Positions 5,342-47,467 of a stretch of DNA of 64,000 nucleotides are shown piece by piece; the stretch's first letter is position 1, and each line of letters starts with the position of its first letter. Location: assembly GCF_010233585.1 (NCBI RefSeq), contig NZ_CP045997.1, positions 2,394,692 to 2,458,691 of the forward strand, read 5' to 3'. Both the position numbers and the translations under genes were made by a program. Below the pieces are notes generated by a model, which saw only the letters and a list, made by a program, of their open reading frames with translations, did not search any database and was not told where the DNA came from. Source of the DNA: Spirosoma endbachense. Its GTDB lineage: Bacteria; Bacteroidota; Bacteroidia; Cytophagales; Spirosomataceae.

Positions 5342-6166
5342 CTAGAACCCAATTGAGTTACCCCCATCAACGGGCAGTGATACGCCAGTGACATATTTGG
5401 CGGCTTCCGAAGCCAGATAAACAGCGGCCCAACCGATATCATCGGGTTTGCCAAATTTCCCCATCGGTGTCCGACGCATGGCGCGGGCAAACCGGTCGGG
5501 ATCTCCGCCCATTGCTGTTTTGCTCATCGCTGTCTCAATAAATCCGGGGGCAATCGCATTGACGCGAACGCCATTGCCCGAAAACTCCGACGCCAGCACT
5601 TTAACCATGCCCTCAACCGCCGACTTGGAAGCGGCATACGCTACCACCCTGTCAAGTCCATAATAGGCGGCCATCGACGAAATCATGATGATCGAACCAC
5701 GTTTACGCGCCATCATGCGTTGCGCACAGGCACGGGTCAGGCTGAAGACGGAGTTCAGGTTTGTGTGAACAATACGGTCGAAATCTTCGTCGGTTACTTC
5801 AAGGGCCGGTTTTTTCATGTTGATACCGGCATTATTGACCAGAATATCAATGGGACCGTGTGCGGCTTCAATTTCCTCTACCAGGCCATCCAGCGATCCC
5901 CTTGCTGTTACATCGTTCACCTTGTAATAGGCCTGAGCACCGGTGCGGCTTTCGGCAAGCAGTCCAACTGCTTCCTGTAGGGGCTGCTCCCGACGACCTG
6001 TGATGACAACACTGGCCCCGGCCACCACCATACAACGGGCTATGTCAAAGCCAATTCCACTCCCCCCACCCGTAATGAGCGCGAGTTTGCCTTCGAGCGA
6101 AAAAATGGTATGAACCGTTGGATTGACTGCCTGCTGCACGTTCGTATTCTCTTGCACTTGTTCCAT
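5342..6166 (-). CDS. SDR-family oxidoreductase, possibly a sugar-acid dehydrogenase
   Basis: This is a classical short-chain dehydrogenase of 274 residues. It has the cofactor motif GGGSGIG near residues 33-39, the structural NNAG motif, catalytic Ser in MISSMAAYYG and the YAASK Tyr-Lys pair, and a C-terminal PVDGG motif. A hydrophilic 25-residue N-terminal extension precedes the Rossmann fold, and there is no export signal, so it is cytoplasmic. The sequence resembles gluconate 5-dehydrogenase and KduD-like enzymes. Given the mannonate dehydratase gene in the same series, a role as fructuronate/mannonate oxidoreductase is plausible, since SDR-type enzymes of this size do that job in Bacillus. 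That assignment is inference; the SDR call itself is firm. Confidence 0.85.
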   Translation of the reverse strand: MEQVQENTNVQQAVNPTVHTIFSLEGKLALITGGGSGIGFDIARCMVVAGASVVITGRREQPLQEAVGLLAESRTGAQAYYKVNDVTARGSLDGLVEEIEAAHGPIDILVNNAGINMKKPALEVTDEDFDRIVHTNLNSVFSLTRACAQRMMARKRGSIIMISSMAAYYGLDRVVAYAASKSAVEGMVKVLASEFSGNGVRVNAIAPGFIETAMSKTAMGGDPDRFARAMRRTPMGKFGKPDDIGWAAVYLASEAAKYVTGVSLPVDGGNSIGF

Positions 6167-6262
6167 TTTTTAGGTTGGTTATTCAATCAGTTTATGGCAT
6201 TTATTTTCCAGAGGACGTGCTGTCTCCTGCCGCCCCGGAAAACAAAAACCATAAACCGTAAA

Positions 6263-7102
6263 CTATTTTATCGGTGTATCCCTCGAATCGGCGTAGGCTT
6301 TACTGAAATCGATTTTCCGGACCTGCCCGACCACGAAACGGACTCCCTGAAAAATGTGCTGGGTAAACGTAGGGTCTTCATAGTCTTTTTTATCATGACC
6401 AAGCGCCGTACACCAGGTATATCCTCCATCGAAATTGTAATACCAGGCCGCCGGATAGAGCTCGGTGTATGACCCCCGATTGGCGATTATCTTGTCTTTT
6501 TCTTCCTGGTCTTGTGGATTCAGTGCGGTCAGATCATGTACCATTACGACGGTTGGCCCTGGCGACATTTCTTTCGAGAAATAACACTCATCCCCTTTCT
6601 CCCAAACCTTGGGCAATCCCTGCATGGACGGATGGTTCGTGTCGATAATATTGAGTTTGAGTTTCTGGAAATGAGGATGCCAGGCAAACGTTCCACCAAG
6701 CATTCGCTTAAACCAGAGCCAGTTACGCTCGGTCCCTATGACAGAATGAATGCCAACAAACCCGCCACCAGCCTCAATATACCGTCGAAATGCCAGCCGT
6801 TGCGCATCGGTATCGAATACATCGTTGTTGGTACTTGGGAAAATCAGGGCTGTATATTGCTTCAGATTTTCTTCGGTGAAGACCGCTGGCTGATCTGACA
6901 CATCAACCTTGAATCCGTGCTGCTGCCCAAGTTTCTGAATACACTGAACGGCATTGGGGATGTTATCGTGAACATATCCTTTCCCATTTTTTGTGTAGAC
7001 CAGCACCCGGACTTTCTTCCAGTTCACCTGATCGTCCAATGACCAGCCGACACTCGTGGCAACCAGGACTAAAAGCAGGGTAAGTACGTATCGTTTCGTC
7101 AT
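6263..7102 (-). CDS. Exported ThuA-like domain protein
   Basis: The 279-residue product starts with a clear Sec signal peptide (MTKRYVLTLLLVLVA, cleavage near residue 21). The rest is one ThuA-like domain, a class I glutamine amidotransferase-like fold. Visible family features are RVLVYTKNGKGYVHD at the first strand, YTALIFPSTNN, GGGFVGIHS where a nucleophile Cys sits in true amidotransferases (here Ile-His-Ser), WHPHFQ, and the C-terminal WCTALGHDKKDYEDP. ThuA was named for trehalose utilisation in Sinorhizobium, and related proteins occur with Gfo/Idh/MocA oxidoreductases in Bacteroidota sugar loci. It is followed 96 bases on by the SDR gene. A role in processing oxidised sugars is inference. 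Confidence 0.8.
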   Translation of the reverse strand: MTKRYVLTLLLVLVATSVGWSLDDQVNWKKVRVLVYTKNGKGYVHDNIPNAVQCIQKLGQQHGFKVDVSDQPAVFTEENLKQYTALIFPSTNNDVFDTDAQRLAFRRYIEAGGGFVGIHSVIGTERNWLWFKRMLGGTFAWHPHFQKLKLNIIDTNHPSMQGLPKVWEKGDECYFSKEMSPGPTVVMVHDLTALNPQDQEEKDKIIANRGSYTELYPAAWYYNFDGGYTWCTALGHDKKDYEDPTFTQHIFQGVRFVVGQVRKIDFSKAYADSRDTPIK

Positions 7103-7120
7103 GTGTCAATATCGGAATTC

Positions 7121-7168
7121 GGCTTCCCGAACGTTTTGAGCGTTCGGGAAGCCCGGCGTTTCAACGCC
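7121..7168. repeat. Double hairpin with CTTCCCGAA arms
   Basis: A 13-bp perfect stem (7121-7133 with 7141-7153, loop of 7) is followed at once by a smaller stem (7155-7160 with 7163-7168). It ends at the base before the stop codon of the upstream minus-strand gene, so it probably terminates or stabilises that transcript. The arm CTTCCCGAA recurs in the hairpin at 40605. Confidence 0.7.
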
Positions 7169-8347
7169 TTAACTCTTACTTTTCAGGTGAATTGGTTGCG
7201 CCTGCTTCTGGGCTTTAAGTGCCAGCTCGGTAGCCAGAAAACAATGCTCCTGCGTCATAGCGGTTTCGGTACGATTCAGGATGTCGTTCACGAGTTGTTC
7301 GCCGTAGGGCAGTGTCTCTTTGCTACAATCGAAGTAGCGGGTTTCTTTATTATCCGTCAGAAACAGGTGGTTTCCGCCTTCGCGCCCACCCGGATCAATG
7401 TTCTTACGAATCTCGATGAAGCCTTCTGTACCAAGAATTGTCAGGCGACCATCACCCCAGGATTTCAACCCATCCGGCGTAAACCAGTCGACCCGAATGT
7501 AGCCCACACCGCCATCACCACGCAGCATCACATCGCCGAAATCTTCGAAGTTTGGGTATTGCGGATGGTTCGTATTGCCAATCTGCGACGCAACCACATC
7601 GGCTTTGGAAGAACCGGTAAAGTAGAGAAACTGATCGAACTGGTGCGAACCAATGTCGCAGATAATGCCACCGAACCGCTTCCGATCGAAGAACCAATCC
7701 GGACGCGACTTGGGCGTTATGCGGTGCGGCCCCAGGCCAATTGTCTGGATTACTTTGCCAATTGCGCCCGCCTTAACCAACTCTCCGGCTTTAACCGTCG
7801 CCTTATTCTCGAAGCGTTCACTATACATGATTGAGTAGATACGCTTCGTTTCCTTCTGAACGCGACGTACTTCGGCCAGTTGTTCAAGGGTTGTGATACC
7901 GGGTTTATCGGCCATGTAATCCTTACCAGCCTTCATGACCCGAACACCCAGTGGTGCCCGTTCGTCGGGAATACCAGAACTGAGAACAAGTTGTATGGAC
8001 TTATCATCAAGAATTTCCTGTTCGCTTTTGGCGAGTTTGGCCTGTGGGTATCGTTTGGCAAACGCAGCCGCCAGATCAGGCTCTTTCGCGTAGAATGACG
8101 TTAATTCGCCACCACCCCGAACCGTAGCTTCCACCTGACCGTAAATATGGCCGTGATTCATGCCAATAACAGCGAACTTAATCCGTCCGGCTTTGGGAGC
8201 CAGCGGAGTCTTCGTTTCATTTTCGATGACCAGTCGTTGAGGAGCAGTCAACACCTCACCAGGCAAGCCCGGTAACATGATCAGGCCAGCCGCCGTTGCG
8301 ACGGACTCTTTAAGAAACTTGCGTCGATTATCCTGTGGGTTGTTCAT
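7169..8347 (-). CDS. Gfo/Idh/MocA-family oxidoreductase with Tat signal
   Basis: The 392-residue product has a Tat-type N-terminus (NRRKFLKES followed by a hydrophobic AATAAGLIMLPG-like stretch), so it should be exported folded, probably with bound NAD(P). The Rossmann part starts near residue 55 (IKFAVIGMNHGHIYG), where the usual GxGxxG reads GMNHGH. The equivalent of the EKP motif is MADKPG, with the catalytic-type Lys kept. The C-terminal GFO-like alpha/beta domain includes CDIGSHQFDQF, which matches the family His motif. Family members oxidise or reduce sugar hydroxyls. It is the third of three consecutive exported members here (with 8443 and 9953). Confidence 0.85.
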   Translation of the reverse strand: MNNPQDNRRKFLKESVATAAGLIMLPGLPGEVLTAPQRLVIENETKTPLAPKAGRIKFAVIGMNHGHIYGQVEATVRGGGELTSFYAKEPDLAAAFAKRYPQAKLAKSEQEILDDKSIQLVLSSGIPDERAPLGVRVMKAGKDYMADKPGITTLEQLAEVRRVQKETKRIYSIMYSERFENKATVKAGELVKAGAIGKVIQTIGLGPHRITPKSRPDWFFDRKRFGGIICDIGSHQFDQFLYFTGSSKADVVASQIGNTNHPQYPNFEDFGDVMLRGDGGVGYIRVDWFTPDGLKSWGDGRLTILGTEGFIEIRKNIDPGGREGGNHLFLTDNKETRYFDCSKETLPYGEQLVNDILNRTETAMTQEHCFLATELALKAQKQAQPIHLKSKS

Positions 8348-8370
8348 GATTTTAAGGGGGTTAAAGAGGT

Positions 8371-8445
8371 AAAGAGTGAATGAGCGAACGAGTGATCCCC
8401 ATCATTTTTGCTGAAGTATCACACGTTCACTCATTCGCTCTTTCA
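8371..8445. repeat. Long imperfect hairpin of GAATGAGTGAA-type repeat
   Basis: Arms 8371-8396 and 8418-8443 pair over 26 positions with three mismatches or wobbles. The right arm runs into the stop codon of the upstream minus-strand gene. Twenty bases at 8426-8445 are identical to 53258-53277 in another hairpin downstream of ffh, so this is a dispersed repeat used as a terminator-like element. Confidence 0.7.
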
Positions 8446-9849
8446 TTTGCTCTTTGATTTTTTCGCCAGTTCCAGCGCTTGCGTTGTGGTGTAATATTTA
8501 GCCAGCATGTTGGGGACCTCCCAGGCAGGCATCTTGCCTTCTTTCAGGTATTGCAGGTATTTCTGCGTTACCCGACCAAAATGGGCCTCGTGACCTTCCT
8601 TGTATTTTTCGGGAATGACGACTTCCCAGCCTTTTGCTATTTTCTTTAGTTCGACACCCGGAAACTCCTTTTGAATGGTCGGCAGAGCAGTTTTCAGCGA
8701 GGCATCGAGGGCTGTGTTTCCTTTGATCGGCTCGATATACAGCGTTGGCTTATACTGTTGCTCAGCTCCCTGTCGAATGATCAGGTTGGCTTTCGTTCCG
8801 CGCATAATCGAGTAGTGGGTGTCGCCTGCTCCTTCCGGTGCTTTATAGGCCCAGGTAACCGATACTTTTGCATGCACACCCCGGAGCTGATAGTTAATCT
8901 CACCGTTGCTGTATACGCGCAGGATGCTGTCTTTTACGACATCTTTTTTGAGGTAATCTGGAAAAGCATCCAGTTTTGTTATAGCCTTAAATTGACTAAG
9001 GCTCATATCCGTCGTCCATCGCCGGGCCGACTTAAGGTTAATATCTTTTTGATAGTCAATGGTTTGTTCGGGAAAACATTCCCACTGAACAAGATCGACC
9101 AGGTGAGTCGTTACATCGACAATTCCTTCGCCCTGCTGCGCAACGTCCATAAACCAGGCCGGGCGCGTGAGGATGCTTCCCGACACATTTTTATAGAAAT
9201 GGTGAACACTCTCTTTCGTAACGGATGGATTGTCGGGCGTCCCTTTTTCCAGTGTTCCGAACACGTCGGCCTGCATCGAAAAGGCCCGCTGTAACATGGT
9301 CGATATTTCGTACCGTTCCGTCATGATGTCATAGAGCAACACCTTATTTTTCTCCGCCGTAGCGAAAGCATCTTTCAATTGGCCAAAATTCGACGAACTG
9401 ATAACCATTGGTTTATCGGCCAGTACATTAAATCCAGCGTCAACCGTTTTCTGGATGTAATCTGTTTTCAGGCGGTTGTTTCCAGCCATCACCACTACAT
9501 TCCCGGCCCGATCAGCTATCATTTTGTCCAGGAAATCCGCGCCTTTATAGACTTTTTCTTTCCAATGGGTCGGATCGTCGGGGCGGGTATTGTAGCCCTG
9601 AATTTTATCCAGATACAGTTGCAAATCGGGTCCGTCGGACGCATACACATGCACGACCGAATCCACGCCGTCATACATCGTTTTCTGCACCAGAGCCGCA
9701 TGAAAATGACCGGGGTCTAACGTGATCAGGCGAATCATACCATCATCAGAATCTTGTCCGGCTTTTTTCTCCGACGATTGACAGGCGGCAAGTAGTGCGG
9801 CCATAAACAGGCTACCAACAGTGGGCAATAACTTCATTTTAGCTAGCAT
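8443..9849 (-). CDS. Lipoprotein-type Gfo/Idh/MocA-family oxidoreductase
   Basis: This 468-residue protein has a lipoprotein signal: a hydrophobic segment ending LLAAC with the lipidation Cys near residue 23, then a charged linker. It would be membrane-anchored outside the cytoplasm. The Rossmann-like start is IRLITLDPGHFHAALV, in which the GxGxxG loop is replaced by DPGHFH. The later VLADKPMVI matches the EKP-type motif. The C-terminal half differs from the classical GFO domain and resembles the separate putative oxidoreductase C-terminal family seen in Bacteroidota. ATG codons at 9849 and 9837 are both possible; the second gives the more usual signal length. Because the cofactor loop is atypical, its catalytic status is less certain than for its neighbours. 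Confidence 0.8.
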   Translation of the reverse strand: MLAKMKLLPTVGSLFMAALLAACQSSEKKAGQDSDDGMIRLITLDPGHFHAALVQKTMYDGVDSVVHVYASDGPDLQLYLDKIQGYNTRPDDPTHWKEKVYKGADFLDKMIADRAGNVVVMAGNNRLKTDYIQKTVDAGFNVLADKPMVISSSNFGQLKDAFATAEKNKVLLYDIMTERYEISTMLQRAFSMQADVFGTLEKGTPDNPSVTKESVHHFYKNVSGSILTRPAWFMDVAQQGEGIVDVTTHLVDLVQWECFPEQTIDYQKDINLKSARRWTTDMSLSQFKAITKLDAFPDYLKKDVVKDSILRVYSNGEINYQLRGVHAKVSVTWAYKAPEGAGDTHYSIMRGTKANLIIRQGAEQQYKPTLYIEPIKGNTALDASLKTALPTIQKEFPGVELKKIAKGWEVVIPEKYKEGHEAHFGRVTQKYLQYLKEGKMPAWEVPNMLAKYYTTTQALELAKKSKSK

Positions 9850-9952
9850 TATAGTTTAAACAATTTACGGTCAAGGAGTTGCGATGAGGTGACGCATTCG
9901 TTTCATGCCGCTCCGGCATACCGGCCCACCCCAGTTTCCTGACCATAAACCC

Positions 9953-11371
9953 TTATCTCCCCTTCGCCGAGGCCACTGCTTTAATGGCATACGTTGCACG
10001 CTGTGGGCGCGACAGCAGTTTATTGGCTTCCGGGTCGTTTTTAAACTGTTCTTTTTTCGGGTCCCAATAGAGTTTACGATTCAGTTTCATAGCCGCATGA
10101 TGGAGCAGGCAAGCCGAGCAGGAACGGTGACCAACTTCGGCCGGAGCAATCGGTTCCTTGCGGCTGATGATGCTTTCCAGCCAGTTGCCGTGATGTTCTT
10201 TACTGACAGTCAGATGAACTTCATTGGGTCCGATAACCGATGTGAGGAGTTTGGGATCACTGGCATCCAGTTTCTTGGCCGCATTCTGTTTCGCAATAGG
10301 ATCGCTGGCCGTTACGGCCGCATCGCCACGAGAGACGAAAATCCAGCCTTCAGTTCCTTCGAATTTAATGCCATTGGCAATCTCATTCGTGACAATCATC
10401 CGCACGCCATTTTCATACAGGGCTTCTGTACGGAAAATGCCATGTACATCCCACAGGCCTTTTTTCGGAAAATCGGCTTTGCCCCAGATTTCAACAGGGC
10501 CGGTGTATTCTGTATTCATGGCCCAATGGGCCGAATCGACGTGGTGTGCGCCCCATCCGGTGATCATTCCGGCACCGAATTGTTCACAACGTAACCAGCC
10601 GGGCCGATCGTAGCCAACTTGTGGATGCACCCGTTTTTCGGTATAGTAAACCTCCGGCGTTGTGCCCAGCCACATGTCGTAATTCAGGTTTTTCGGAACG
10701 GGCATTTGAGGCTCCTCTTCACCCGATGGGTCGCCGGGCAAACCAACATAAACCGTTTTTAACTGTCCGATCCGGCCATTGCGGACCAGCTCGGCGGCAT
10801 ACCGAAACTGTTCCGATGAACGCTGCTGGCTACCAACCTGTACGATCTGCCCGGATTGTTTGACCGCATCAGCCATCATCCGGCCTTCGGCGATGGTAAG
10901 AGAGGCTGGCTTCTGCATGTAAACGTCCTTTTTTGCCCGCACCGCATCGACTACAATCGGGGCATGCCAATGATCGGGGGTACTGACAATGACGGCATCG
11001 ATATCTTTGTTGTTCAATAATTCCCGATAGTCGGTATAACCCCGAACGCCATCATAATCTTTACCTGTTTTCTTGGCATAATAGCCATTGACCAGCTTCT
11101 TGGCATCTTCAACCCGGTTGCTGTCGAGATCGCAGACGGCCATAATCAGTGCGTTATCATACTGCCATACCCCCGGCATATCATGCCCACGGGAGATACG
11201 TCCCGTGCCAATGGCAGCGATATTGATTCGATTACTAGGAGCATTTTTCCCAAATACCGACGCAGGCACAATCGTTGGAAAACCACCTATGATCGTCGTG
11301 GCTAAGGCTCCTGTTGCTGTCGTTTTCAGAAAACTACGTCTCGATACGTCCACTACTTCGTCTTTTTTCAT
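9953..11371 (-). CDS. Gfo/Idh/MocA-family oxidoreductase with Tat signal
   Basis: The 472-residue product carries a textbook Tat signal, SRRSFLKTTATG, followed by a hydrophobic Ala/Thr-rich stretch, so it is exported folded. The Rossmann motif AAIGTGRISRGHD lies near residue 50, VYMQKPASLT corresponds to the EKP motif (Gln in place of Glu, Lys kept), and GWGAHHVDSAHWA is the conserved His region of the C-terminal domain. This architecture is common in Bacteroidota loci acting on oxidised glycosides, where such enzymes act on sugar hydroxyls with tightly held NAD(P). It lies about 100 bases after the GH67 gene and the same distance before the lipoprotein-type member, consistent with one long transcript. 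Confidence 0.87.
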   Translation of the reverse strand: MKKDEVVDVSRRSFLKTTATGALATTIIGGFPTIVPASVFGKNAPSNRINIAAIGTGRISRGHDMPGVWQYDNALIMAVCDLDSNRVEDAKKLVNGYYAKKTGKDYDGVRGYTDYRELLNNKDIDAVIVSTPDHWHAPIVVDAVRAKKDVYMQKPASLTIAEGRMMADAVKQSGQIVQVGSQQRSSEQFRYAAELVRNGRIGQLKTVYVGLPGDPSGEEEPQMPVPKNLNYDMWLGTTPEVYYTEKRVHPQVGYDRPGWLRCEQFGAGMITGWGAHHVDSAHWAMNTEYTGPVEIWGKADFPKKGLWDVHGIFRTEALYENGVRMIVTNEIANGIKFEGTEGWIFVSRGDAAVTASDPIAKQNAAKKLDASDPKLLTSVIGPNEVHLTVSKEHHGNWLESIISRKEPIAPAEVGHRSCSACLLHHAAMKLNRKLYWDPKKEQFKNDPEANKLLSRPQRATYAIKAVASAKGR

Positions 11372-11469
11372 GGCATTAAGGATTTAGGAATCGTTAGTAT
11401 ACAAAGCTTATTAAACATTACATCTATCTGTTTTTCAGAAAATGATTTCTTACAGATTGTCGCAGAAAC

Positions 11470-13602
11470 TCAACGAAGCAGGTAAATATCAACCAGTTGT
11501 TTTACCTCACCCAGTGTTCGTTCCGGCTTTTTGTAGGGAGCCGGAATGGGCTGACGCGCATACTCCTGTAGATACAAAACCCACGCATCCCGCCACCAAA
11601 TCGCTTCTTTATGCTGGGTTTCCAGTCGGGCAGCGACGTCGGCGTATGTTTCCGGATCAATATTGTTCTTCACTTGCGCCCACTGTTTCTGCATCCAGCC
11701 AACGGAATCGGCACCCGTATAGAAACGCGTGCAGAGTTCATCCCAGAGTGTGCGGCCCGTTGTCAGTTTCTTGGTCCACGGCACATGGTGGAACCAGAGC
11801 AAATAGGGTAATGGGCAGGTTTCGACGTTATTCCAGCGCTGCTGCACCTCCGGACTATATTGTGCCAGCGCATTGCTCCCCGTAGACGTCCGGTCAAAAC
11901 CCAATCCTACCGAATCGGCCCGGTGGTAGTAAATGGCTGTCCAGTCGGGCCGGGAGCTTTTATTTTGCCAGGGTTCGGGCGCAAAGTGAACGCCCGACCA
12001 GGGGCGCGAAAGCCCAAGCGGGGTATTATAATTCACGTAAATTTCCCGCGATCTGAGCATCAGATCAGCAATGTGTTTTACAGCCTGAGGCTCATTGGTG
12101 AGCGTCATTTTTATCCATTCGTTCGCAATCGCTTCAGCAGACAGCGTATTGTCCCAGGCCAATCGTCCATAAGCATACCAATTCGCCTGCGCCATCGGAT
12201 GACCCGTCCAGTTACGGTCGGAGCCCGTGTTGGCAACACCCGCCATAGCCGTTATTGCATAGCCGTGTAAGCTACCATCCACAACCCTGGCGACGGTTGA
12301 ATTTTTACCTTTAGCGTAGGTATCTGTCTCCAGGCATTCCTTGAAAATGGGTGCTTCGTAGACCATGTGCGTTGCAAAGCCGAGGTATTCCTGCGTAATC
12401 TGGAACTCCATTGCCAGCGGTGTTTTGGGCATTTTCCCGAATAAGGGCGAAAATGGCTCACGAGGCTGGAAATCAATAGGACCGTTTTTCACCTGAACGA
12501 TCACCTTTTTATCGAACTTACCGTCGAGGTCACCAAACTCTTCGTAAGCCGCTTTGAAGCGGTCGGCTTTAGGGTCAGCCTTGTAGACAAAGGCCCGCCA
12601 CAGCACAATACCATCATAGGGTTTCAGCGCTTCGGCCAGCATGTTGGCTCCATCGGCATGATTGCGGCCGTAATCCTGCGGGCCGGGCTCGCCTTCCGAA
12701 TTGGCCTTAACGAGAAAACCGCCAAAATCCGGAATGAGCGCATAGATTTCTTTCGCCTTATCGGCCCACCATTTCCGAACCTCCGGGTCGAGTGGGTCGG
12801 CTGTTTTCAGACCGCCGATGGTTTTGGGAGCCGGGAAATAAACCGACAGATAAACCCGAATGCCATAAGGCCGAAAAACAGTAGCCAGTGCCGCTACTTT
12901 CTGGATGTATTCACCCGTAAGAAAACGAGCGCTGGCATTGACGTTATTGACAACCGTTCCGTTGATACCCAGCGATGCATTGGCCCGGGCATAATCGCGG
13001 TAGCGTGGGTCCAGCCGTTCGGGGAGTTCGAACCATTTCCAGAGCGTTCCTCCTGCATACCCCCGCTCAATAGTGCCGTTGGTATTATCCCAATGGTTGA
13101 GCATCCGATAGCGAACCTTTGGGTTACTGGTCAGCGAAATAGTGGAGAGAGGTTGGCGCGTCTGAAGTTGGCGTAGTAGCCCAAAGGCACCATACAAAAC
13201 GCCCGACTCGGTTTTTCCGTTAATGACAATGTTGTTTGACTGGCTTGAAATCTGATACCCTTCTGCATTCAATTCCTGATTGCTGGCCGTTGGGCCATTC
13301 CCGACAGCCAGAACAATGCCACCCGTCCGGCTACCAGCGTTGGCAATAACGGGTATCGATTTACCCAACAACCCCTGCAAACCGATCTGCAACTCATCGG
13401 CTGCTGCTTTCAAAACCGAGTTGTTGCCATTCAGCGCGATAAACTGCGCCGAACGTGCGTAAGCATCCCGCTGACCCGCGTCTTTAATCAAATCATATTT
13501 CAGCCACAACCGATACCCATCCTCCCGGTCTGGTGGTCCGGCGTAGGTACTGGTGGCGACCAGCAGGAGGACAACAAGTTTAGTGTACTTTATCGAATTC
13601 AT
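11470..13602 (-). CDS. aguA: Alpha-glucuronidase, GH67
   Basis: The 710-residue protein matches family GH67 along its length. It releases (4-O-methyl)glucuronic acid from the non-reducing end of xylo-oligosaccharides. A Sec signal peptide (MNSIKYTKLVVLLLVATSTYA) places it in the periplasm or at the surface. The segment ERGYAGGTLWKWFELP is a family hallmark. The acid catalyst is probably the Glu in KANSEGEPGPQ (about residue 305), with the partner carboxylates in GPIDFQPREP (about 375) and LAMEFQITQEY (about 397). Length is normal for the family. The next gene upstream is uxuA, and CE15 lies just before that, so side-chain release, ester cleavage and hexuronate catabolism are encoded together. 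Confidence 0.93.
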   Translation of the reverse strand: MNSIKYTKLVVLLLVATSTYAGPPDREDGYRLWLKYDLIKDAGQRDAYARSAQFIALNGNNSVLKAAADELQIGLQGLLGKSIPVIANAGSRTGGIVLAVGNGPTASNQELNAEGYQISSQSNNIVINGKTESGVLYGAFGLLRQLQTRQPLSTISLTSNPKVRYRMLNHWDNTNGTIERGYAGGTLWKWFELPERLDPRYRDYARANASLGINGTVVNNVNASARFLTGEYIQKVAALATVFRPYGIRVYLSVYFPAPKTIGGLKTADPLDPEVRKWWADKAKEIYALIPDFGGFLVKANSEGEPGPQDYGRNHADGANMLAEALKPYDGIVLWRAFVYKADPKADRFKAAYEEFGDLDGKFDKKVIVQVKNGPIDFQPREPFSPLFGKMPKTPLAMEFQITQEYLGFATHMVYEAPIFKECLETDTYAKGKNSTVARVVDGSLHGYAITAMAGVANTGSDRNWTGHPMAQANWYAYGRLAWDNTLSAEAIANEWIKMTLTNEPQAVKHIADLMLRSREIYVNYNTPLGLSRPWSGVHFAPEPWQNKSSRPDWTAIYYHRADSVGLGFDRTSTGSNALAQYSPEVQQRWNNVETCPLPYLLWFHHVPWTKKLTTGRTLWDELCTRFYTGADSVGWMQKQWAQVKNNIDPETYADVAARLETQHKEAIWWRDAWVLYLQEYARQPIPAPYKKPERTLGEVKQLVDIYLLR

Positions 13603-13673
13603 GTGTTGCTAGTAACGCTTCGTGAAGTTGTGTACTACTACCCAATGCTGGGATACCAGATAGTGCCTAAAAA

Positions 13674-14930
13674 TTAATAGTCGGCCGATTGCTGGGTCAG
13701 TATACCTTCTGTTTCTTCCAGCGATCGAATGATTCCGAACTCCAGTCCGCGTAGCTCTGCCAGTCCGCGCAGCCGACCGATTGCCGAATAACCGGGGTAG
13801 GTTCGCTTATGCAAATCGTCGAGCATCTGATGGCCGTGGTCAGGACGCATCGGTATCGCCGTTGCGCCAATACCCAGCTGGGCTCTCCGCTGCTGTTCCA
13901 GCACAATTGCCTTCACCACAGCATACATATCAACATCGCCGGCCAGGTGATCTGCTTCATGAAAGTTGCGGGCATCACCAGAACCCTCGGCACCTTCCCG
14001 CTTCGTTGTACGGAGATGAATAAAGTGAATGCGATTACCGAATCGCCGAATCATTCCGGGTAAATCATTGTCGGAGCGGATGCCCAGTGAACCCGTACAG
14101 AACGTGATGCCATTGGCGGTTACGTCGCAAGCCGCCATCAGTTGCGCCAGGTCCGCTTCAGTACTGACTACGCGGGGTAATCCTAACAAGGGCCGGGGGG
14201 GATCGTCGGGGTGAATGCAGAGATTAATCCCGACTTCCTGAGCCAGTGGGGCAACTTCCTGAATAAAGTAATACAAGTTTTCCCGAAGCTCCTTATCGCC
14301 AATTGTCGCGTATTCATTTAACAGGCCCTGAAATGTATCGAGCGAAAAAGCCTCTTCAGAACCAGGTAATCCGAGCAAAACAACATTGGTCAATGCGGCA
14401 ATTTCCTCAGCCGTCATCCGCTCAAACTTCTGACGAGCCGACTGGGCCACTTCAGGTTCATAATCAGGTTCAGCACCCGGACGCTTTAAAATGCACAGAT
14501 CGAACAGCGCGAAATCCTCCCAAACGAACCGCAGCGCCCGCGATCCATCCGGCATTTCATAGTTAAGATTGGTACGCGACCAGTCGAGCACCGGCATAAA
14601 ATTGTAGCAAACTGTGTTGATGCCACAAGCGGCCAGGTTGCGGATCGACTGCTTATAATTTTCGATATACGCGGTTCTGCCCGAACGACCTTTTTTGATG
14701 TCTTCATGAACGGGCAAGCTCTCGACCACCGCCCACTGTAAAGGCGAATACCGATCATTCATGGCCTCAACAAGCTGCTTTCGTTCGTCAATGGCTTCGA
14801 CTGACCAGACCTCACCTACCGGAATCTGATGCAGCGCCGTCACTACGCCCGTGCAACCTGCCTGCCGTATATCCATTAATGAAACCGGGTCGTTTGGCCC
14901 GAACCAGCGCATGGTTTGTAACATTCCCAT
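13674..14930 (-). CDS. uxuA: Mannonate dehydratase
   Basis: The 418-residue protein is a UxuA-type D-mannonate dehydratase, which converts mannonate to 2-keto-3-deoxygluconate in hexuronate breakdown. It begins [16 protein letters not shown], a family-typical start. The xylose-isomerase-like barrel carries the metal/substrate residues in [27 protein letters not shown] and [12 protein letters not shown]. The longest open frame begins at a TTG ten codons earlier; I chose the ATG at 14930 because it fits the usual start. There is no signal peptide, so this step is cytoplasmic. The glucuronate isomerase expected upstream in the pathway is not in the window, and the SDR at 5342 could be the reductase. 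Confidence 0.93.
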
Positions 14931-14984
14931 AATAAATGCTCGTCGCGTTTGGAAAAACAAGCTGGTTAGCCTGCTCCCAACCGG

Positions 14985-16451
14985 TTATTTAATCCGTTTA
15001 AATTGTTTTTCGGCAAATTCCAGAAATACCGGCCAGTCGGGGGCATCGGTATGACCACCTTCATGATTGCGGAAAGCCAGTTCGCCGTCCATCAGCGCTT
15101 CGTCAGGCTTGGGCATTTCGGTTGTAGTCAACCCTTTTTTACCAAGCAGATTATACACCGGGCTAGCGCCAACACAGGCCAGAAACATGCCATACGAGTC
15201 GCCCCAACTGTCTTTTGTGCCACCCGTAATAAATAACGGCCGGGGAGCCACCAGCGCTACCAGTTCGTGCGCATCAACGGGCATGGCAGCCCAATTGCCC
15301 CCGTATTTAACGAAGTTCTCTGCCATCCAGTGGTATTCACCCGAGCCAGCCACGTTGTCGATGGTCTCGCCATAATTTCGTTTTTCGAGGGAAGCGCCCA
15401 TCGATCCGGAACAGCTGGCAAAAACAATAGCCCAGCGAGGATCGGTAGCACCTGCAAGCAAGGCAGTTTTCCCCCAGCGCGAATGCCCCTGAATCCCGAT
15501 TTGTTTGGCATTGATGGCCTTGTCGGTCTCGAAATAATCAAATGCACGACTTAGTCCCCAGCACCACGCAGACAATACGCCCCAGTCGTCGGGTTTTCGG
15601 TCTTTTCCTTCATTGACCAGGCCAATAATACCTTCATGCAAACCACCTCCATTATCCATCTGAATAGAACCGGTATTGACAGTTGCTACCGCCCAACCCG
15701 CCGTAATGACCCGGTTAATCGTCAGCATTGGGGCGGGAAATGATCCCCAGACCAGCACCATCAGCGGCACTGGCCCTTTGGCACTGGCCGGTGTATACAG
15801 GGTTATATTGATACTCGGTTTGGCACTGGGGTATCGTGAATTGTCAATGTGGCCAACAATTGTTTTTCGGATAGCTTTGCTTTTGAGTGCCGTATCGATC
15901 ACCTCCGTGACTTCAAAGCGCACTTTCGGCGTATTCTTCGGTGTTTTGCCGTATATCTCGGTCAAATAATCATTCAGAATTTCGGGTCGGCGCTGTTTCC
16001 ACCAGGCATTCGCATCCTTAACAGGCTTGCCACTTTTTAGCACCAGCGGGTTCGGCAAGTCGTGGCCTTCAGCTTTCGTTTCGTCGTAGTTGGTCCAGTT
16101 GCCCCATCCTGATCGAACGTGGGTATTGCCCGCATCGTCGTACCAATTGGTTGACCCCTCTTTCTGCTTGAGCTGCGAGGGTCGCTTAGGATCATCGGCG
16201 GGCGGAGGCAGCGTCGGCAATTTCAGATTTAGCTGATTCATTACTTTCTGCCAGTCTTCCTGGCTGGCCTCCCGCATTTTGTTCATATAAGCCGTCCGCT
16301 GCTCGGGCGTCATTTTCTGAAAATCGGGTGCCTGAGCGTTCGCAACGGAGCCGGATAGCATACTGATAATCAGGCAACAGGTACAAATTGCTGCGAGAAG
16401 TCTGGGCGATCTATCTAAAAGGTCAACACGTTCGGGCAGGGAATTATGCAT
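14985..16451 (-). CDS. Carbohydrate esterase family 15 (glucuronoyl esterase)
   Basis: The 488-residue product has a signal peptide (hydrophobic LLAAICTCCLIISML, cleavage near residue 40) and a Pro-rich, helical linker of about 80 residues before the alpha/beta-hydrolase domain. The nucleophile motif is GHSRWGK with Ser324, the CE15 signature, and the catalytic His is His467 in NHEGGHTDAPDW. CE15 enzymes cleave the ester between lignin and 4-O-methylglucuronate side chains of xylan. Placement two genes from a GH67 alpha-glucuronidase supports this substrate. It is sometimes annotated as acetylxylan esterase, but the SRxGK motif favours CE15. The gene ends 54 bases before the uxuA start. Confidence 0.87.
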   Translation of the reverse strand: MHNSLPERVDLLDRSPRLLAAICTCCLIISMLSGSVANAQAPDFQKMTPEQRTAYMNKMREASQEDWQKVMNQLNLKLPTLPPPADDPKRPSQLKQKEGSTNWYDDAGNTHVRSGWGNWTNYDETKAEGHDLPNPLVLKSGKPVKDANAWWKQRRPEILNDYLTEIYGKTPKNTPKVRFEVTEVIDTALKSKAIRKTIVGHIDNSRYPSAKPSINITLYTPASAKGPVPLMVLVWGSFPAPMLTINRVITAGWAVATVNTGSIQMDNGGGLHEGIIGLVNEGKDRKPDDWGVLSAWCWGLSRAFDYFETDKAINAKQIGIQGHSRWGKTALLAGATDPRWAIVFASCSGSMGASLEKRNYGETIDNVAGSGEYHWMAENFVKYGGNWAAMPVDAHELVALVAPRPLFITGGTKDSWGDSYGMFLACVGASPVYNLLGKKGLTTTEMPKPDEALMDGELAFRNHEGGHTDAPDWPVFLEFAEKQFKRIK

Positions 16452-16506
16452 TGGGAAAATTATTTTTCATGACATTTAGCTTACTCTTCCAGGGATACTT
16501 ATTGTA

Positions 16507-16565
16507 GTCTATCGCTTGGAGCTGTGCCACGGTTCAAAACCGTGGCACAGCTCCAAGCGATAGAC
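16507..16565. terminator. Perfect 28-bp hairpin between minus-strand genes
   Basis: Arms 16507-16534 and 16538-16565 are exact reverse complements over 28 bases with a 3-base loop. The core is GTGCCACGGTT paired with AACCGTGGCAC. It lies between the stop of the dehydratase gene and the start of the CE15 gene, so it can end the rraA-like/dehydratase transcript. No strong T-run follows on the minus strand, so it could also act as an mRNA-stability element or be a dispersed repeat. Confidence 0.75.
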
Positions 16566-16596
16566 CTATTAGTGATCAGCGCGGCCAGTCGGGCGT

Positions 16597-17874
16597 TTAG
16601 ACAAAAAACGGCACATCTTTCGGCGCGTACTTCCGCATCCCTTCTTCATTGATTTCCACACCAATACCAGGCTTTTCCGATAGGGGGATAAATCCTTTTT
16701 CTACCATTGGGCCATCGAACGTAACGATCTCTTTAAACATTGGCTCCTCGTGGAAGTAGATCTGCCACTCCAGAATCAGGAAGTTCGGTACCGACGCGCA
16801 GACGTGACTCGACGCCATTGCCCCCAGGTATGAGGCTACCATGTGTGGGGCAAACGGAACGTAATAGAGGTTGGATAGATTAGCAATCCGCTGCGCTTCG
16901 CCCAGGCCCCCTGCTTTCTGCAAATCAGGCATAATGATATCCACCGCCCCGATTTCGAGCAGTCTACGGAAACCGTGAGCCAGGTAATGATTTTCACCGG
17001 CACAGATGGGTGTATTGGAAGCCTCACGAATCTGTCGGTATGCTTCGGGATTTTCGGCGGGAATCGGTTCTTCGAGAAAGAGGAGGTTTAAGGGCTCCAT
17101 CATCTTGGCGACGCGTCGGCCGGTGGTTACGTCATACTTCCCGTGCATATCCACACAGATGTCGATCTTCGGTCCAACGGCTTTCCGTACCCCGGCAATC
17201 TGGTTGTACATCCGTTCCAGCTCGCCCTGGCTGGCCGTCCAGTTGTAGGCATCGAATTTGTTCGGGTCGTTGCGCTCATCGATGTCGTATTTCACGGCTG
17301 TAAAGCCCATATCGACGGCTTTTTTGGCACTTTTCCCGAAAGCATCCGGACTGGTGTCCGTTTCCCGATAGGCTCCCGTATCGCAATAGACCCGGATTTT
17401 ATTCCGGAATTTGCCGCCCAGCAATTGATACACGGGCATACCCAGCGCTTTACCGACAAGATCCCACAGGGCCGTTTCGACCGCCGAGAGAACCGAAATA
17501 TACATGCCTGCCTGCGCTCCTTCGAAAAAGCCCGCTTTCCGAACATCTTCAAACAAGCGGTGCACATTAAGCGGGCTTTTGCCTTTGATCCGTTCACCCA
17601 TCATTTTCACCAAATGATAGGTTCCGGGCGTAGCATCGACGCCTTCACCGCATCCCCAGATTCCCTGATTGGTATGTACCTTGACGAACAAACTATGTCC
17701 ATTCCGAATAAAGCCGCATTTGATGTCGGTGATTTTCAGATCGGAGGGAGCTGATGATTGCGGAGCCCGGTCAACAGCTGTTTCCAGGCCATTTCCGAAA
17801 CCAGATAATGAACTGGCCGTTAAGGCACTGGCGATGGCGCTTTTAGTGAGAAATGAACGACGGGATGTTTTCAT
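16597..17874 (-). CDS. Tat-exported enolase-superfamily (mandelate racemase/MLE) sugar-acid dehydratase
   Basis: The 425-residue protein has a Tat signal, SRRSFLTKSAIASA, which is unusual because enzymes of this superfamily are normally cytoplasmic. The N-terminal capping domain starts near residue 45 (LKITDIKCGF). The barrel carries the three metal ligands Asp242 (CVDMHG), Glu268 or Glu269 (LFLEEP) and Glu294 (CAGEN), plus a His in FAPHM as probable general base. The pattern is that of galactonate or gluconate dehydratase-like enzymes, which turn aldonic or uronic acids into 2-keto-3-deoxy acids. The gene begins 25 bases after the RraA-like gene, so a dehydratase and a possible aldolase share a transcript. 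The exact substrate is not readable. Confidence 0.87.
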   Translation of the reverse strand: MKTSRRSFLTKSAIASALTASSLSGFGNGLETAVDRAPQSSAPSDLKITDIKCGFIRNGHSLFVKVHTNQGIWGCGEGVDATPGTYHLVKMMGERIKGKSPLNVHRLFEDVRKAGFFEGAQAGMYISVLSAVETALWDLVGKALGMPVYQLLGGKFRNKIRVYCDTGAYRETDTSPDAFGKSAKKAVDMGFTAVKYDIDERNDPNKFDAYNWTASQGELERMYNQIAGVRKAVGPKIDICVDMHGKYDVTTGRRVAKMMEPLNLLFLEEPIPAENPEAYRQIREASNTPICAGENHYLAHGFRRLLEIGAVDIIMPDLQKAGGLGEAQRIANLSNLYYVPFAPHMVASYLGAMASSHVCASVPNFLILEWQIYFHEEPMFKEIVTFDGPMVEKGFIPLSEKPGIGVEINEEGMRKYAPKDVPFFV

Positions 17875-17899
17875 GGTTAAAAGAGTTTAGGCGGTCGAT

Positions 17900-18844
17900 T
17901 TACCAGGTGCGGGTTTTGAGATAATCCTGAATTTGCTCTTTCGGAACGGGCAGTTCGTTCACGTGGGCGTTCAGCCATTGCGAGAAGTCTTTCTCAATAT
18001 CATCTGACCAGCGTGAGTCAATCTGTCCTGGCGTGTATTTCTGCTCCCGTAAACGCAGGTGACCAAACATGTCACGCAACCGGATAATCTCGGAGGTTTT
18101 GACGACTTTCTCGGCCAGATGTGGCGGAATAAAACAAACACCCCCGTCGCGCCCAAGCACCACATCGCCCGGCATCACCATGACCTTACCAATGCGCGTC
18201 GGCCGGTTGATGCCCACCAATGTTGTATTCAGATTGCCTTCCGGATTATGGTGTGAGGGATGATAACTCCGGAAATAAGAAGTGAACCCTCCAATTTCTT
18301 TTAGTCCGGCCACATCGCGAACGGCTCCTTCATAGACGATCCCATTGCCCGTTTTGGCGTAGATGGAGTTGCCCAGGTTATCACCAATGGTCGGGCCGTC
18401 TTCGTGCATACCAAACTGATCGACAACGTATACATCGCCCTTAATCAGCATGTCGATCGGCCAGGCATTCTGCGATTTTACGCGCCCGTCTTTCGTGTGC
18501 CCTTTTTCGTCCGTAACACGGTGTACATCCGGTCGACCGGGCATAAACGTTGCCGTGAGTGCCCGGCCAACCAGTACGCTATCCGGGTTGATCGTTTGCC
18601 AGTCACCGGCAAACTGATAGCGGTAGTTTTCACCTTTCAGTACCGCCCAGGCTTCTTCCTGAGTGACCCGTTTCATGCGTTTCAGAATAGCATCCGGCAC
18701 CTTCGGACGGCCATCGGGGAAGCGTTCTCCTTTCCAGTCGGGGGTCAGAAAGATGAGTTCTTCGCGGGAAATCTGCTGGGCTACCGTTCTCGTTACCGAT
18801 CCGGTCAGAGACAGCATGGCCGCAATAATGACGAATAGCTTCAT
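17900..18844 (-). CDS. Exported RraA-like protein (possible 2-keto-acid aldolase)
   Basis: The 314-residue product has a Sec signal peptide (MKLFVIIAAMLSLTGSV, cleavage near residue 22). The RraA/dimethylmenaquinone methyltransferase-like domain spans about residues 60-270. Visible family features are GRALTAT, GDVYVVDQFG, GNSIYAKTGNGIVYEGAVRD (the substrate and metal loop, with Arg-Asp kept) and PGDVVLGRDGGVCFIP. True RraA proteins regulate RNase E in the cytoplasm, but related proteins are class II aldolases for 4-hydroxy-4-methyl-2-oxoglutarate and oxaloacetate decarboxylases. Export and pairing with a dehydratase make the aldolase reading much more likely. A LacI-type site (18917) lies about 73 bases upstream of the start. 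Confidence 0.82.
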   Translation of the reverse strand: MKLFVIIAAMLSLTGSVTRTVAQQISREELIFLTPDWKGERFPDGRPKVPDAILKRMKRVTQEEAWAVLKGENYRYQFAGDWQTINPDSVLVGRALTATFMPGRPDVHRVTDEKGHTKDGRVKSQNAWPIDMLIKGDVYVVDQFGMHEDGPTIGDNLGNSIYAKTGNGIVYEGAVRDVAGLKEIGGFTSYFRSYHPSHHNPEGNLNTTLVGINRPTRIGKVMVMPGDVVLGRDGGVCFIPPHLAEKVVKTSEIIRLRDMFGHLRLREQKYTPGQIDSRWSDDIEKDFSQWLNAHVNELPVPKEQIQDYLKTRTW

Positions 18845-19109: not shown

Positions 19110-20735
19110 TTATTTATACCGGTACAGCTTCACTTTCTGGATACCATATTCACCTACCGGAATGCGCACATGCCGCCCCTGGTGATCCTGATCCCCATTC
19201 AGACGACGTCCGGGTTGCCATTTCCCATCAACGTATTTCCCTTCATCGACCCGAACAATACCCGCAATGGGCGCTTCGGGTTTATCAGACGAAAACGTGA
19301 TAACCACACCGGTTCCTGCTACCGTAAATTCATCGGGAGCGGTCTGAATAATCAGCCCACCCGTCATTGGCCATTCCTCATCTTTGGCTTTTGGCGACCA
19401 GCCCAGTGTATAATCATGCTTTACCAAAAAAGTATAGTCTCCCAGCCGAACCGTATCGGTAGCCGTCTTTTTGTCGAACAGAAACCCATCCATCATGCGT
19501 TTCCCCTGACTGGCCAGAGTAATCGGACTTAACTGATCGAGTACCGAATAGCTTTTTGCAAGAGGCTCCTCTCCGGGTTTATCCGTTGATTCAATTGAAA
19601 ACGGCGAAAAACCCATCCCATCATAATGACCAACGGTATAGAAGGCTTTGGGGGCCACAGATGGCTCAAACCTTATTTCTGGAATAAACAGCGGGTTATC
19701 CTGACGCTTATAGAGGTCGTTCCAGTGCTTGAAATCCGGATTGTAGAAGTCAGGAGAGAGAAAATCGAGCGCGGGAGCACCAGCTTTCCAGATGTCGATA
19801 ATGTGCGGAAGCGGCCCACCGCTGGGGTAATCGCCCGGTTTCACATTCGGGCGGTTCAGGGCTGCATTAACGAACATGGGGAGTGCATAAATCGCTTTCC
19901 CGGCTTCAGTGACTCGGTTCGCATACTGCGCGAAATGCCAGGCAATGAAGATTTCATCGGTTGCCAGACTTTTACCAAAAACGTCTTCCCAGCTTCCACT
20001 AGTTTTATAACCAGCCTTTTTCCAGGCTTCCAGTACAGCGGGAGCCAGCGTAGTTTTATTCGTTTGTACGTAGTGAAGCAGCGTTTTAGGCACTGGTTGT
20101 TGAAAGGCTTCATTGGCAACGGGCGAATGGTCACGGGCATCGGGCAACATTCCGATCTCGTTTTCGACCTGAATCATGATAACCGTTTGTTGTCGCTCGT
20201 CGGTATCGCGTATGTGCCGCATGAGCGCGCTGAAGGCTTTTATATCGGCCTCCAGATTATTTTTAGCGAAGGGAGTCAGAATTTCCTGACCTCGTCCGGA
20301 TTTATTCTGTGCTCTTGGGAAGCGCTTCGTATCGGTTTTCACCCAATCGGGGACATAGCAGGACATGCTATTTTTCCAGCTGCCAAACCATAAGAGTACC
20401 AGTTTGATCTGATGAGCGCGTGCATCCTTAATCAATTCATCGACCAGTGTAAAGTCGAACTTACCTTCCTGAGGTTCCAGTAATTCCCAATAAACCGGCG
20501 TTAAAACCGTGTTTACGTGCATTTGTTGCAGTTTAGGCCAAACGGGTTTCATATATGTCATATCCGATGCACTGGAATTCCCTAATTCACCACCCAGCAT
20601 CAGAAATGGTTTACCCGCCACGATTAGCTGTGTAGCATTGCCCTGTTTCTGAAGATGGGGCAGGTTAGCAGGCGATTGTGCAGTAGCCGAAAACGCCACA
20701 AAAAACAGGAGAATCTGACAGTAGCAACGAATCAT
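19110..20735 (-). CDS. GH35-like beta-galactosidase with DUF5597-type C-terminus
   Basis: The product of 541 residues starts with a signal peptide (MIRCYCQILLFFVAFSATAQ). Its barrel domain shows GH35/GH42-like features: VNTVLTPVYWELLEPQEGKFDF for the first strands, MIQVENEIG with the acid/base Glu in the Asn-Glu pair, and LFIPEIRFEP with the likely nucleophile Glu. The C-terminal region of about 150 residues matches the DUF5597 tail of Bacteroidota beta-galactosidase-like proteins. The longest open frame begins at a TTG 52 codons upstream; I preferred the ATG at 20735 because it places the signal peptide at the N-terminus. Substrate could be a beta-galactoside or another beta-glycoside. It is divergent from the LacI-type regulator. 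Confidence 0.8.
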   Translation of the reverse strand: MIRCYCQILLFFVAFSATAQSPANLPHLQKQGNATQLIVAGKPFLMLGGELGNSSASDMTYMKPVWPKLQQMHVNTVLTPVYWELLEPQEGKFDFTLVDELIKDARAHQIKLVLLWFGSWKNSMSCYVPDWVKTDTKRFPRAQNKSGRGQEILTPFAKNNLEADIKAFSALMRHIRDTDERQQTVIMIQVENEIGMLPDARDHSPVANEAFQQPVPKTLLHYVQTNKTTLAPAVLEAWKKAGYKTSGSWEDVFGKSLATDEIFIAWHFAQYANRVTEAGKAIYALPMFVNAALNRPNVKPGDYPSGGPLPHIIDIWKAGAPALDFLSPDFYNPDFKHWNDLYKRQDNPLFIPEIRFEPSVAPKAFYTVGHYDGMGFSPFSIESTDKPGEEPLAKSYSVLDQLSPITLASQGKRMMDGFLFDKKTATDTVRLGDYTFLVKHDYTLGWSPKAKDEEWPMTGGLIIQTAPDEFTVAGTGVVITFSSDKPEAPIAGIVRVDEGKYVDGKWQPGRRLNGDQDHQGRHVRIPVGEYGIQKVKLYRYK

Positions 20736-21038
20736 TCGATTGATAGAATTTGTACACGTTTTCCGAAAGCGTTGGCCAAGATGCATAATGTTTCGGAAAT
20801 TCATGTACCGGGTCTTATCAGCCTGGTCACACAGACGCCGGTCAGCAAAACAGCTACGTTTCGTTCGGGTAGTCGTCTCATAATTCGTCAATTGGGTTTA
20901 TTGGTTGATCCTTTTCGTTACGCTGGAAATCTTAGGCTGGAAGCAGTGACTATGCTTTCTAACGGATAGGATTTTTTCATGGATTATTTTTCCTAGCCTC
21001 CCATTTAGACTATAAAGTTCCTGTTAATTTTTATAATT

Positions 21039-24515: not shown

Positions 24516-24562
24516 GATTTTCAAGGCTATCGAATTGATTAAACTCCAGGCGTATAAAGCAT

Positions 24563-47409: not shown

Positions 47410-47467
47410 TTTTTGAAGATGTCAAAGTTTATCGAAACGATACAACTGCGCAGTTTTGCCTGAAGGA

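Follow-up and report, generated by a model that had tools for sequence, protein, structure and literature searches.

The DNA analysed here is a stretch of 64,000 nucleotides from Spirosoma endbachense (contig NZ_CP045997.1, positions 2,394,692 to 2,458,691; hereafter, the window), whose genome is a single contig of 10.3 Mb. Its minus strand carries a gene series encoding, in reading order, an RraA-type protein, a member of the mandelate racemase group of the enolase superfamily (MR_MLE), a CE15-type glucuronoyl esterase, the mannonate dehydratase UxuA, a GH67 alpha-glucuronidase, three Gfo/Idh/MocA oxidoreductases, a ThuA-like protein and a short-chain dehydrogenase/reductase (SDR). A first-pass annotation had proposed that the products of the first two genes, a putative aldolase and a putative dehydratase, break down outside the cytoplasm a sugar acid coming from glucuronoxylan side chains. 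The open reading frame coordinates and the family assignments agree gene by gene with the series on which that proposal was built (GH67, CE15, UxuA, dehydratase and RraA-like protein), as does the 25-base spacing of the dehydratase and RraA-like genes (Table 1). This RraA/MR_MLE pair and its counterparts in other genomes are the subject of the analysis.

Conservation of the RraA and MR_MLE gene pair

Loci containing RraA (designated by L and a number) were taken from whole genomes (40 loci) and from named genomes (80 loci, the best 80 of 521 confirmed ones, a choice that favours close relatives). The protein homologue search scored 8000 candidates, and its total is a lower bound; its nearest named matches were Spirosoma proteins. 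In 73 loci of the 80-locus set, the best RraA had MR_MLE directly next to it on the same strand, and the gaps between neighbours in related loci ranged from -78 to 183 bases. The seven misses were L107 (where the neighbour was annotated on the opposite strand), L109, L119, L130 (contig edge), L162, L164 and L168, the last three labelled Bryobacterales or Bryobacteraceae; 12 of the 80 loci are shorter than 12 kb, and absences there mean little. When any RraA and both MR_MLE types (A and B, see below) were counted, pairing was found in 74/80 and in 32/40 loci of the named-genome and whole-genome sets, respectively. Among 296 Bacteroidota genomes, nine (the one of the window included) had an MR_MLE match at E ≤ 1e-60, and RraA adjoined it in all nine. 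RraA was present in 18 of these 296 genomes; the remaining nine hold only RraA proteins of 48-56% identity, and their fetched loci include a type-B MR_MLE in four cases and no recognised MR_MLE in five. RraA and MR_MLE are thus a real conserved unit.

Export signals

The N-terminus of MR_MLE, MKTSRRSFLTKSAIASAL, was judged by eye to be of the twin-arginine translocation (Tat) type, and that of RraA has a Sec-type hydrophobic stretch ending in ...TVAQQ. By the same visual inspection, Sec-type N-termini are also present in GH67, CE15 and ThuA and RR motifs in two of the Gfo/Idh/MocA proteins, and no signal is visible in UxuA or SDR. The twin arginine was aligned in 132/132 MR_MLE proteins (91 of type A, including that of the window, and 41 of type B), and a pattern search recovered RR in 88/90 and 41/41 of type A and B, respectively. 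For RraA, the anchor WxGER was identified in 145/149 proteins, with an uncharged hydrophobic stretch ahead of it in 140 of those 145, whereas the same test was positive in 0/22 UxuA and 2/10 SDR orthologues used as controls. The patterns GER...DGRP and ...IGD...LGN served to find the 80-locus set, so the anchor, as well as residue D155 discussed below, is partly selected. This test replaced a laxer one (uncharged 10-mer, Kyte-Doolittle value ≥ 1.6, any start) by which 20/22 UxuA proteins had been positive. With its N-terminal RRxF motif and one TatC in the host genome (215.4 bits), MR_MLE has the features of a Tat substrate. N-terminal extensions of this kind do not occur in DgoD, RspA and RraA of Escherichia coli. 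Both MR_MLE and RraA look exported, and the export signals that the first-pass annotation had attributed to them are borne out at the level of prediction.

Catalytic residues of both proteins

In the RraA alignment, R176 and D177 were kept in 150/150 proteins and D155 in 136/150. These three residues fit D-x20-R-D, which we take to be the motif of RraA-type aldolases; in E. coli RraA the Arg is kept, and Q and A take the place of the two Asp. The AlphaFold2 model of RraA (mean per-residue confidence, pLDDT, of 87.8) was compared by Foldseek, ignoring matches beyond rank 26 (E > 0.05), and among the matches was 3noj, a 4-hydroxy-4-methyl-2-oxoglutarate/4-carboxy-4-hydroxy-2-oxoadipate aldolase in which D-x20-R-D is in register with the RraA of the window. 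The enzyme 3noj belongs to aromatic breakdown, and the RraA of the window differs from it by a Sec signal and by a start about 50 residues ahead, relative to the region of the match. The ordinary RNase E regulator RraA, a cytosolic protein of about 160 aa without the catalytic Asp, was ruled out by the length of 314 aa, the Sec signal and the kept RD motif. RraA may accordingly be a metal-dependent 4-hydroxy-2-oxo-acid aldolase. PDB entry 5ir2, entitled "novel cellulases from microbes associated with the gut ecosystem", also matches the fold of the RraA model, which is odd for a cellulase.

Residues D242, E268, E294, H244, D317 and H344 of MR_MLE align with those of the D-galactonate dehydratase DgoD of E. 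coli (29% identity), and these six positions were kept in 90-91 of the 91 type-A proteins. In the mandelate racemase group such residues are the three acidic metal ligands, the His of the DxH motif and an Asp-His dyad. DgoD differs in having no signal peptide and in an operon that carries a kinase and a 6-phospho-galactonate aldolase. With the curated galactonate dehydratase model MR_MLE gave 252.7 bits, under the cut-off of 311, so it is not filed as DgoD itself; its best scores are with aldonate, not uronate, enzymes. The residues fit a putative acid-sugar dehydratase. Since 2-keto-3-deoxy acids are 4-hydroxy-2-oxo acids, the class cut by RraA-type aldolases, the two predicted activities fit as consecutive steps. 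The dehydratase-then-aldolase logic of the first-pass annotation is in this way compatible with the active sites of both proteins, although its specific tie to glucuronoxylan side chains did not hold, as shown below.

Type-B MR_MLE proteins (e.g., L062:7114-8538 and L050:6021-7499) are about 50 residues longer and have Y, F, W or T in place of H244. None of the 41 has this His, and we do not claim the same dehydratase activity for them. Types A and B occurred within one cluster in 26/80 loci, as if for two epimers or two steps. Another locus of the window's own genome (L049:7245-9329, approximately 7359358-7361325) encodes two tandem exported RraA paralogues in which D155 is replaced by S or A; they adjoin a type-B MR_MLE on the opposite strand and possibly catalyse another reaction.

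BASS transporters and aldonate genes in related loci

Neighbouring genes were compared with those of 20 control stretches of 18 kb from 10 genomes, at positions chosen by hand and not at random. A gene for a BASS-type transporter (PF01758) was found in 38/80 loci against 1/20 control regions, and in 35 of the 38 it was the immediate same-strand neighbour of a gene of the pair. Aldonate-type genes (GntP, IlvD/EDD, fumarylacetoacetate (FAA) hydrolase, aldehyde dehydrogenase, FGGY kinase, SMP-30 lactonase or pyrroloquinoline quinone (PQQ) dehydrogenase) were present in 23/80 loci, with at least two kinds in 15, against 1/20 controls; in the Spirosoma-rich whole-genome set they appeared in 4/40. 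The neighbouring GntP and aldonate-type IlvD/EDD proteins exceed their cut-offs. PQQ-dehydrogenase-like genes were located in L062, L064, L146 and L155, those of L062 and L155 being under the NCBIfam cut-offs. SusC-like genes were found in 41/80 loci, and the control regions contained BASS, GntP, SSF, SDR and a distant Gfo once each. A Mucilaginibacter locus (L131) carries, one after the other, RraA, MR_MLE, BASS, FAA hydrolase, aldehyde dehydrogenase, IlvD/EDD dehydratase and GntP symporter, an arrangement that resembles a Weimberg-type pentonate route.

The neighbouring BASS protein reached 239 bits with the bass and PanS models, under both NCBIfam cut-offs, and matched 3zuy, which we take to be ASBT-NM, with an E value of 1e-62. 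By these scores it resembles the family of PanS, ASBT-NM and plant BASS2/5/6; the locus of the window itself has no BASS gene. Plant BASS proteins transport pyruvate, glycolate or 2-keto acids (PMC10645422).

Loci with a different front end

RraA adjoins BASS with no MR_MLE in five loci (L057, L061, L065, L067, which lies at a contig end, and L085). All of these except L067 encode a DgaE/SelA-like pyridoxal phosphate (PLP) protein and a PRK09237-type amidohydrolase, and three of the four also RidA (L057:7131-12216, L061:7265-13009, L065:2976-14812 and L085:7260-17224, the last in a Spirosoma genome). An N-terminal RR motif is present in 6/6 DgaE-like proteins, and RidA and most of the amidohydrolases have export-like N-termini by eye. 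The solved chain nearest to the DgaE-like protein of L057 is D-glucosaminate-6-phosphate ammonia lyase (7lc0, E value of 3e-37). DgaE-like, amidohydrolase and RidA genes were found in 0/20 control regions.

The exported set of L057, L065 and L085 is like the oxidative chitin pathway of Pseudoalteromonas (ong: OngB, OngC, OngD, KdgK), in which a deacetylase, a PLP deaminase and RidA turn N-acetylglucosaminate into 2-keto-3-deoxygluconate (KDG). In that pathway, in contrast, the monomer is imported first, the enzymes, including the two catalytic ones, are predicted to be cytoplasmic and KDG is phosphorylated by KdgK (PMC9537276). A periplasmic (N-acetyl)glucosaminate pathway, as in the use of oxidised chitin, is possible for these sets. 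The presence of two unrelated routes to 2-keto-3-deoxy acids beside the same RraA and BASS is a comparative argument and the best evidence obtained here that RraA takes such acids.

The glucuronoxylan link in Spirosoma

Besides the genome of the window, 26 Spirosoma genomes have a close RraA, and 16 of these were taken for counting. In these 16 loci we found UxuA in 16, GH67 in 15, CE15 in 11, a major facilitator superfamily (MFS) gene in 11 (directly beside MR_MLE in 10) and GFO3, one of the Gfo/Idh/MocA genes, in 8. Spirosoma, Larkinella and Fibrisoma loci have, instead of BASS, GH67 or GH115, UxuA, often CE15 and a DgoT-like MFS symporter. In the PDB sequence search as well as with NCBIfam (where it is under the cut-off), the MFS protein of Spirosoma loci came closest to the D-galactonate transporter; the window itself carries no MFS gene. 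Over the 120 loci, co-occurrence of BASS with GH67, GH115, UxaC or a close UxuA was never observed; distant UxuA-like genes do co-occur with BASS in L062 and L066.

Of the 97 type-A MR_MLE proteins placed in a tree, 23 are glucuronate-linked, and these rows required two label changes, against a mean of 20.8 after shuffling; the bootstrap of this tree is not settled, near-copies inflate the clustering and L167 and L132/L141 form long branches. All 23 fall within one nested group of 25 rows from Spirosoma, Fibrisoma and Larkinella, alongside two BASS-linked rows. Such nesting suggests that the link to glucuronoxylan probably arose when an older module was recruited, once and with a single loss. 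The taxonomic labels of L151 (Williamsia, Actinomycetota) and of L120, L129, L134 and L135 (Spirosoma fluviale) clash with their positions in the tree, and these are probably mis-binned or mislabelled contigs of metagenome-assembled genomes.

A pair specific to glucuronoxylan was thus ruled out, because the module is far wider and stands elsewhere with BASS and aldonate genes. What remains of the tie that the first-pass annotation had drawn is a lineage-specific association, constant for UxuA and nearly so for GH67 in Spirosoma; in 74 of the 97 tree rows the fetched stretch contains no glucuronate gene. As for the substrate, 4-O-methylglucuronate is only one candidate, which nothing here favours over an aldonate. 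With two UxaC matches, UxuA and three matches to the KDPG-aldolase family over the cut-off, the genome seems to provide a cytosolic route for free glucuronate. To our knowledge, the breakdown route of 4-O-methylglucuronate is unclear. Possible substrates in Spirosoma are an aldonate derived from sugars of xylan or cellulose, an acid that the Gfo/Idh/MocA proteins produce, and glucuronate or 4-O-methylglucuronate itself. A report on Dyadobacter CE15 enzymes mentions a nearby cluster with an annotation for putative uronate metabolism, and the pair is not named in its accessible part (PMC11096219).

Proposed pathway

Judging from the sequences, we consider it probable that the RraA/MR_MLE pair is an extracytoplasmic two-step sugar-acid module. 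As its catalytic residues suggest, Tat-exported MR_MLE would act on an aldonate, removing the proton adjacent to its carboxylate and expelling the neighbouring hydroxyl, giving a 2-keto-3-deoxy acid, which Sec-exported, metal-dependent RraA would then cut to pyruvate and a short aldehyde. From the gene order outside Spirosoma, the 2-oxo acid would be imported by the BASS-type Na+ symporter. At the four loci with a DgaE-like protein, the 2-keto-3-deoxy acid would come from a 2-amino sugar acid by the action of this exported ammonia lyase (with RidA in three of them), followed by the same RraA and BASS. In Spirosoma, acids would be taken up by the MFS symporter in place of BASS, and in this genus, Larkinella and Fibrisoma the module would have been recruited to glucuronoxylan breakdown. 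RraA and BASS would then form the periplasmic end-piece of a pathway resembling the non-phosphorylative Entner-Doudoroff one. More tentatively, all this may amount to a chain-cleaving pathway in the periplasm of Bacteroidota, with exchangeable front ends (MR_MLE for aldonates, or amidohydrolase, DgaE-like protein and RidA for amino sugar acids) and a shared RraA and BASS pyruvate uptake, that in Spirosoma serves glucuronoxylan and in which the dehydratase may expel methanol, demethylating acids derived from 4-O-methylglucuronate.

In the non-phosphorylative Entner-Doudoroff and Dahms pathways the reactions follow the same sequence: an aldonate is dehydrated, and retro-aldol cleavage then yields pyruvate and an aldehyde. 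Their known versions are cytosolic and use aldolases of other folds, whereas in Spirosoma both enzymes have export signals and an RraA-type protein is the candidate aldolase. Sugar-acid chemistry outside the cytoplasm also occurs in periplasmic oxidation by PQQ glucose dehydrogenase or the glucose-fructose oxidoreductase of Zymomonas, but there it consists of oxidation with no cutting of the carbon chain in the periplasm. No description of the exported pair was found in the literature searched, whose coverage excluded most subscription papers and bioRxiv. The chemistry is known, and what is new is apparently its move outside the cytoplasm. If this is true, pyruvate would be made outside and then imported without transport or phosphorylation of sugar acids. 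The reading of Bacteroidota genomes for the use of sugar acids, hemicellulose and perhaps oxidised chitin would change, a function would be assigned to a large group of proteins whose present names are RraA family or regulator of RNase E, a substrate would be predicted for a group of BASS carriers and a route for 4-O-methylglucuronate would be suggested.

Several data weigh against this interpretation. RraA had no same-strand MR_MLE neighbour in 8/40 loci (in L049 and L088 it is on the other strand) and in 6/80, and RraA-type proteins also bear the name oxaloacetate decarboxylase. MR_MLE is below the cut-off of every NCBIfam equivalog that it matched, its nearest solved relative (2qq6, 43%) has a title naming no function, and the enolase superfamily includes epimerases and cycloisomerases such as the anhydrogalactonate cycloisomerase of Zobellia (5olc). 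With the DgaE-family ammonia-lyase model, whose cut-off is 385, the DgaE-like proteins reached no more than 163-201 bits. BASS was present in 0/16 Spirosoma loci, 57/80 loci had no aldonate-type neighbour, and the enrichment of neighbours is somewhat favoured by reference proteins drawn from the studied loci. Finally, a Neisseria BASS protein bound pantoate and not ketopantoate (PMC10645422), which tells against a general claim of 2-oxo-acid transport for BASS.

Alternative explanations

The constancy of UxuA (16/16) and GH67 (15/16) beside the pair in Spirosoma, together with the exported look of GH67, CE15 and others, could also mean that GH67 frees glucuronate or 4-O-methylglucuronate for direct action by the pair, which spells out the idea of the first-pass annotation. 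Abstraction of H5 and expulsion of the 4-substituent as water or methanol would give a 5-keto-4-deoxyuronate, which RraA would cleave or SDR, with its 215 bits to KduD (under the cut-off), would reduce to KDG. Loss of methanol is attractive in that the group expelled would be the methylated oxygen at C4. We nevertheless regard this as unlikely, given the aldonate enzymes with which MR_MLE scores best, the apparent cytosolic route of free glucuronate and the close, short-branch MR_MLE relatives without any glucuronate gene in the fetched stretch (74/97 tree rows).

It is quite unlikely, in our opinion, that the exported pair performs other chemistry, for instance as an epimerase or cycloisomerase together with a decarboxylase, on oxidised sugars (3-keto or lactone forms) produced by Gfo/Idh/MocA and ThuA. 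The diversity of the enolase superfamily, the three Gfo/Idh/MocA genes and ThuA downstream of the pair and a partial match to the glycoside 3-dehydrogenase model (142.3 of 750 bits) speak for it; yet Gfo is optional in Spirosoma (GFO3 in 8/16 loci) and rare elsewhere (3/80, two of them at 28-29% identity), and the dehydratase residues of MR_MLE are fully kept. As the signals are predicted from sequence only, the pair might instead be an ordinary cytoplasmic non-phosphorylative dehydratase and aldolase whose signals do not export. Such a location seems very improbable in view of the twin arginine of every aligned MR_MLE (132/132), the hydrophobic N-terminus of 140/145 RraA proteins against 0/22 for UxuA, and the E. 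coli DgoD, RspA and RraA proteins, which have no such extensions.

Other genes of the window

The coordinates and supporting evidence of the gene series are given in Table 1.

Table 1. Features of the minus-strand gene series (positions in the window)
Feature	Positions	Strand	Evidence
RraA-type protein, Sec signal; proposed periplasmic 2-keto-3-deoxy-acid (4-hydroxy-2-oxo-acid) aldolase	17900..18844	-	PF03737
Intergenic gap RraA/MR_MLE, 25 bases	17875..17899	-	Open reading frame coordinates
MR_MLE, enolase-superfamily (mandelate racemase group) acid-sugar dehydratase candidate, Tat signal	16597..17874	-	PF13378, PF02746
CE15-type glucuronoyl esterase, Sec signal	14985..16451	-	PF22244, 113.2 bits; signal by eye
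UxuA mannonate dehydratase, cytosolic	13674..14960	-	TIGR00695, 529.5 bits (cut-off 199.6)
GH67 alpha-glucuronidase, Sec signal	11470..13602	-	PF07488, PF07477, PF03648; signal by eye
GFO3, Gfo/Idh/MocA oxidoreductase, Tat signal	9953..11371	-	PF01408, PF19051; TIGR01409, 19.7 bits (cut-off 16.7)
GFO2, Gfo/Idh/MocA, lipobox-like signal LLAAC	8443..9849	-	PF16490, 476.7 bits; lipobox by eye
GFO1, Gfo/Idh/MocA oxidoreductase, RR motif	7169..8347	-	PF22725, PF01408; motif by eye
ThuA-like protein, Sec signal	6263..7102	-	PF06283, 212 bits; signal by eye
SDR, cytosolic; candidate fructuronate or 5-keto-4-deoxyuronate reductase	5342..6166	-	PRK07231, 238.6 bits (cut-off 215); KduD, 215.1 bits (under cut-off 338.9)

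The region 23475-27346 encodes a DUF7133/cytochrome c protein and an AP_endonuc_2 protein that has an RR motif. Their presence, with the three exported-looking Gfo/Idh/MocA proteins and ThuA, suggests a separate periplasmic set for sugar oxidation, which we assume to be of the 3-keto type; a 3-keto-glycoside route exists in Bacteroides thetaiotaomicron. Of the parts expected of a locus for glucuronoxylan use (GH67 or GH115, CE15, uronate enzymes and SusC/SusD), the series has GH67, CE15 and UxuA. The SusC and SusD families were absent from the genes scanned in 3599-27346, and a SusD/SusC (TonB receptor) pair is located at 45613-50815, far from the gene series. Just upstream of the series lies a gene for a GH35/GH42-like protein with DUF5597 (19110-20891), and near the edge of the window a GH2 C-terminal piece (52-1101) is followed by a gene encoding an FAD-dependent oxidoreductase (1076-3364).

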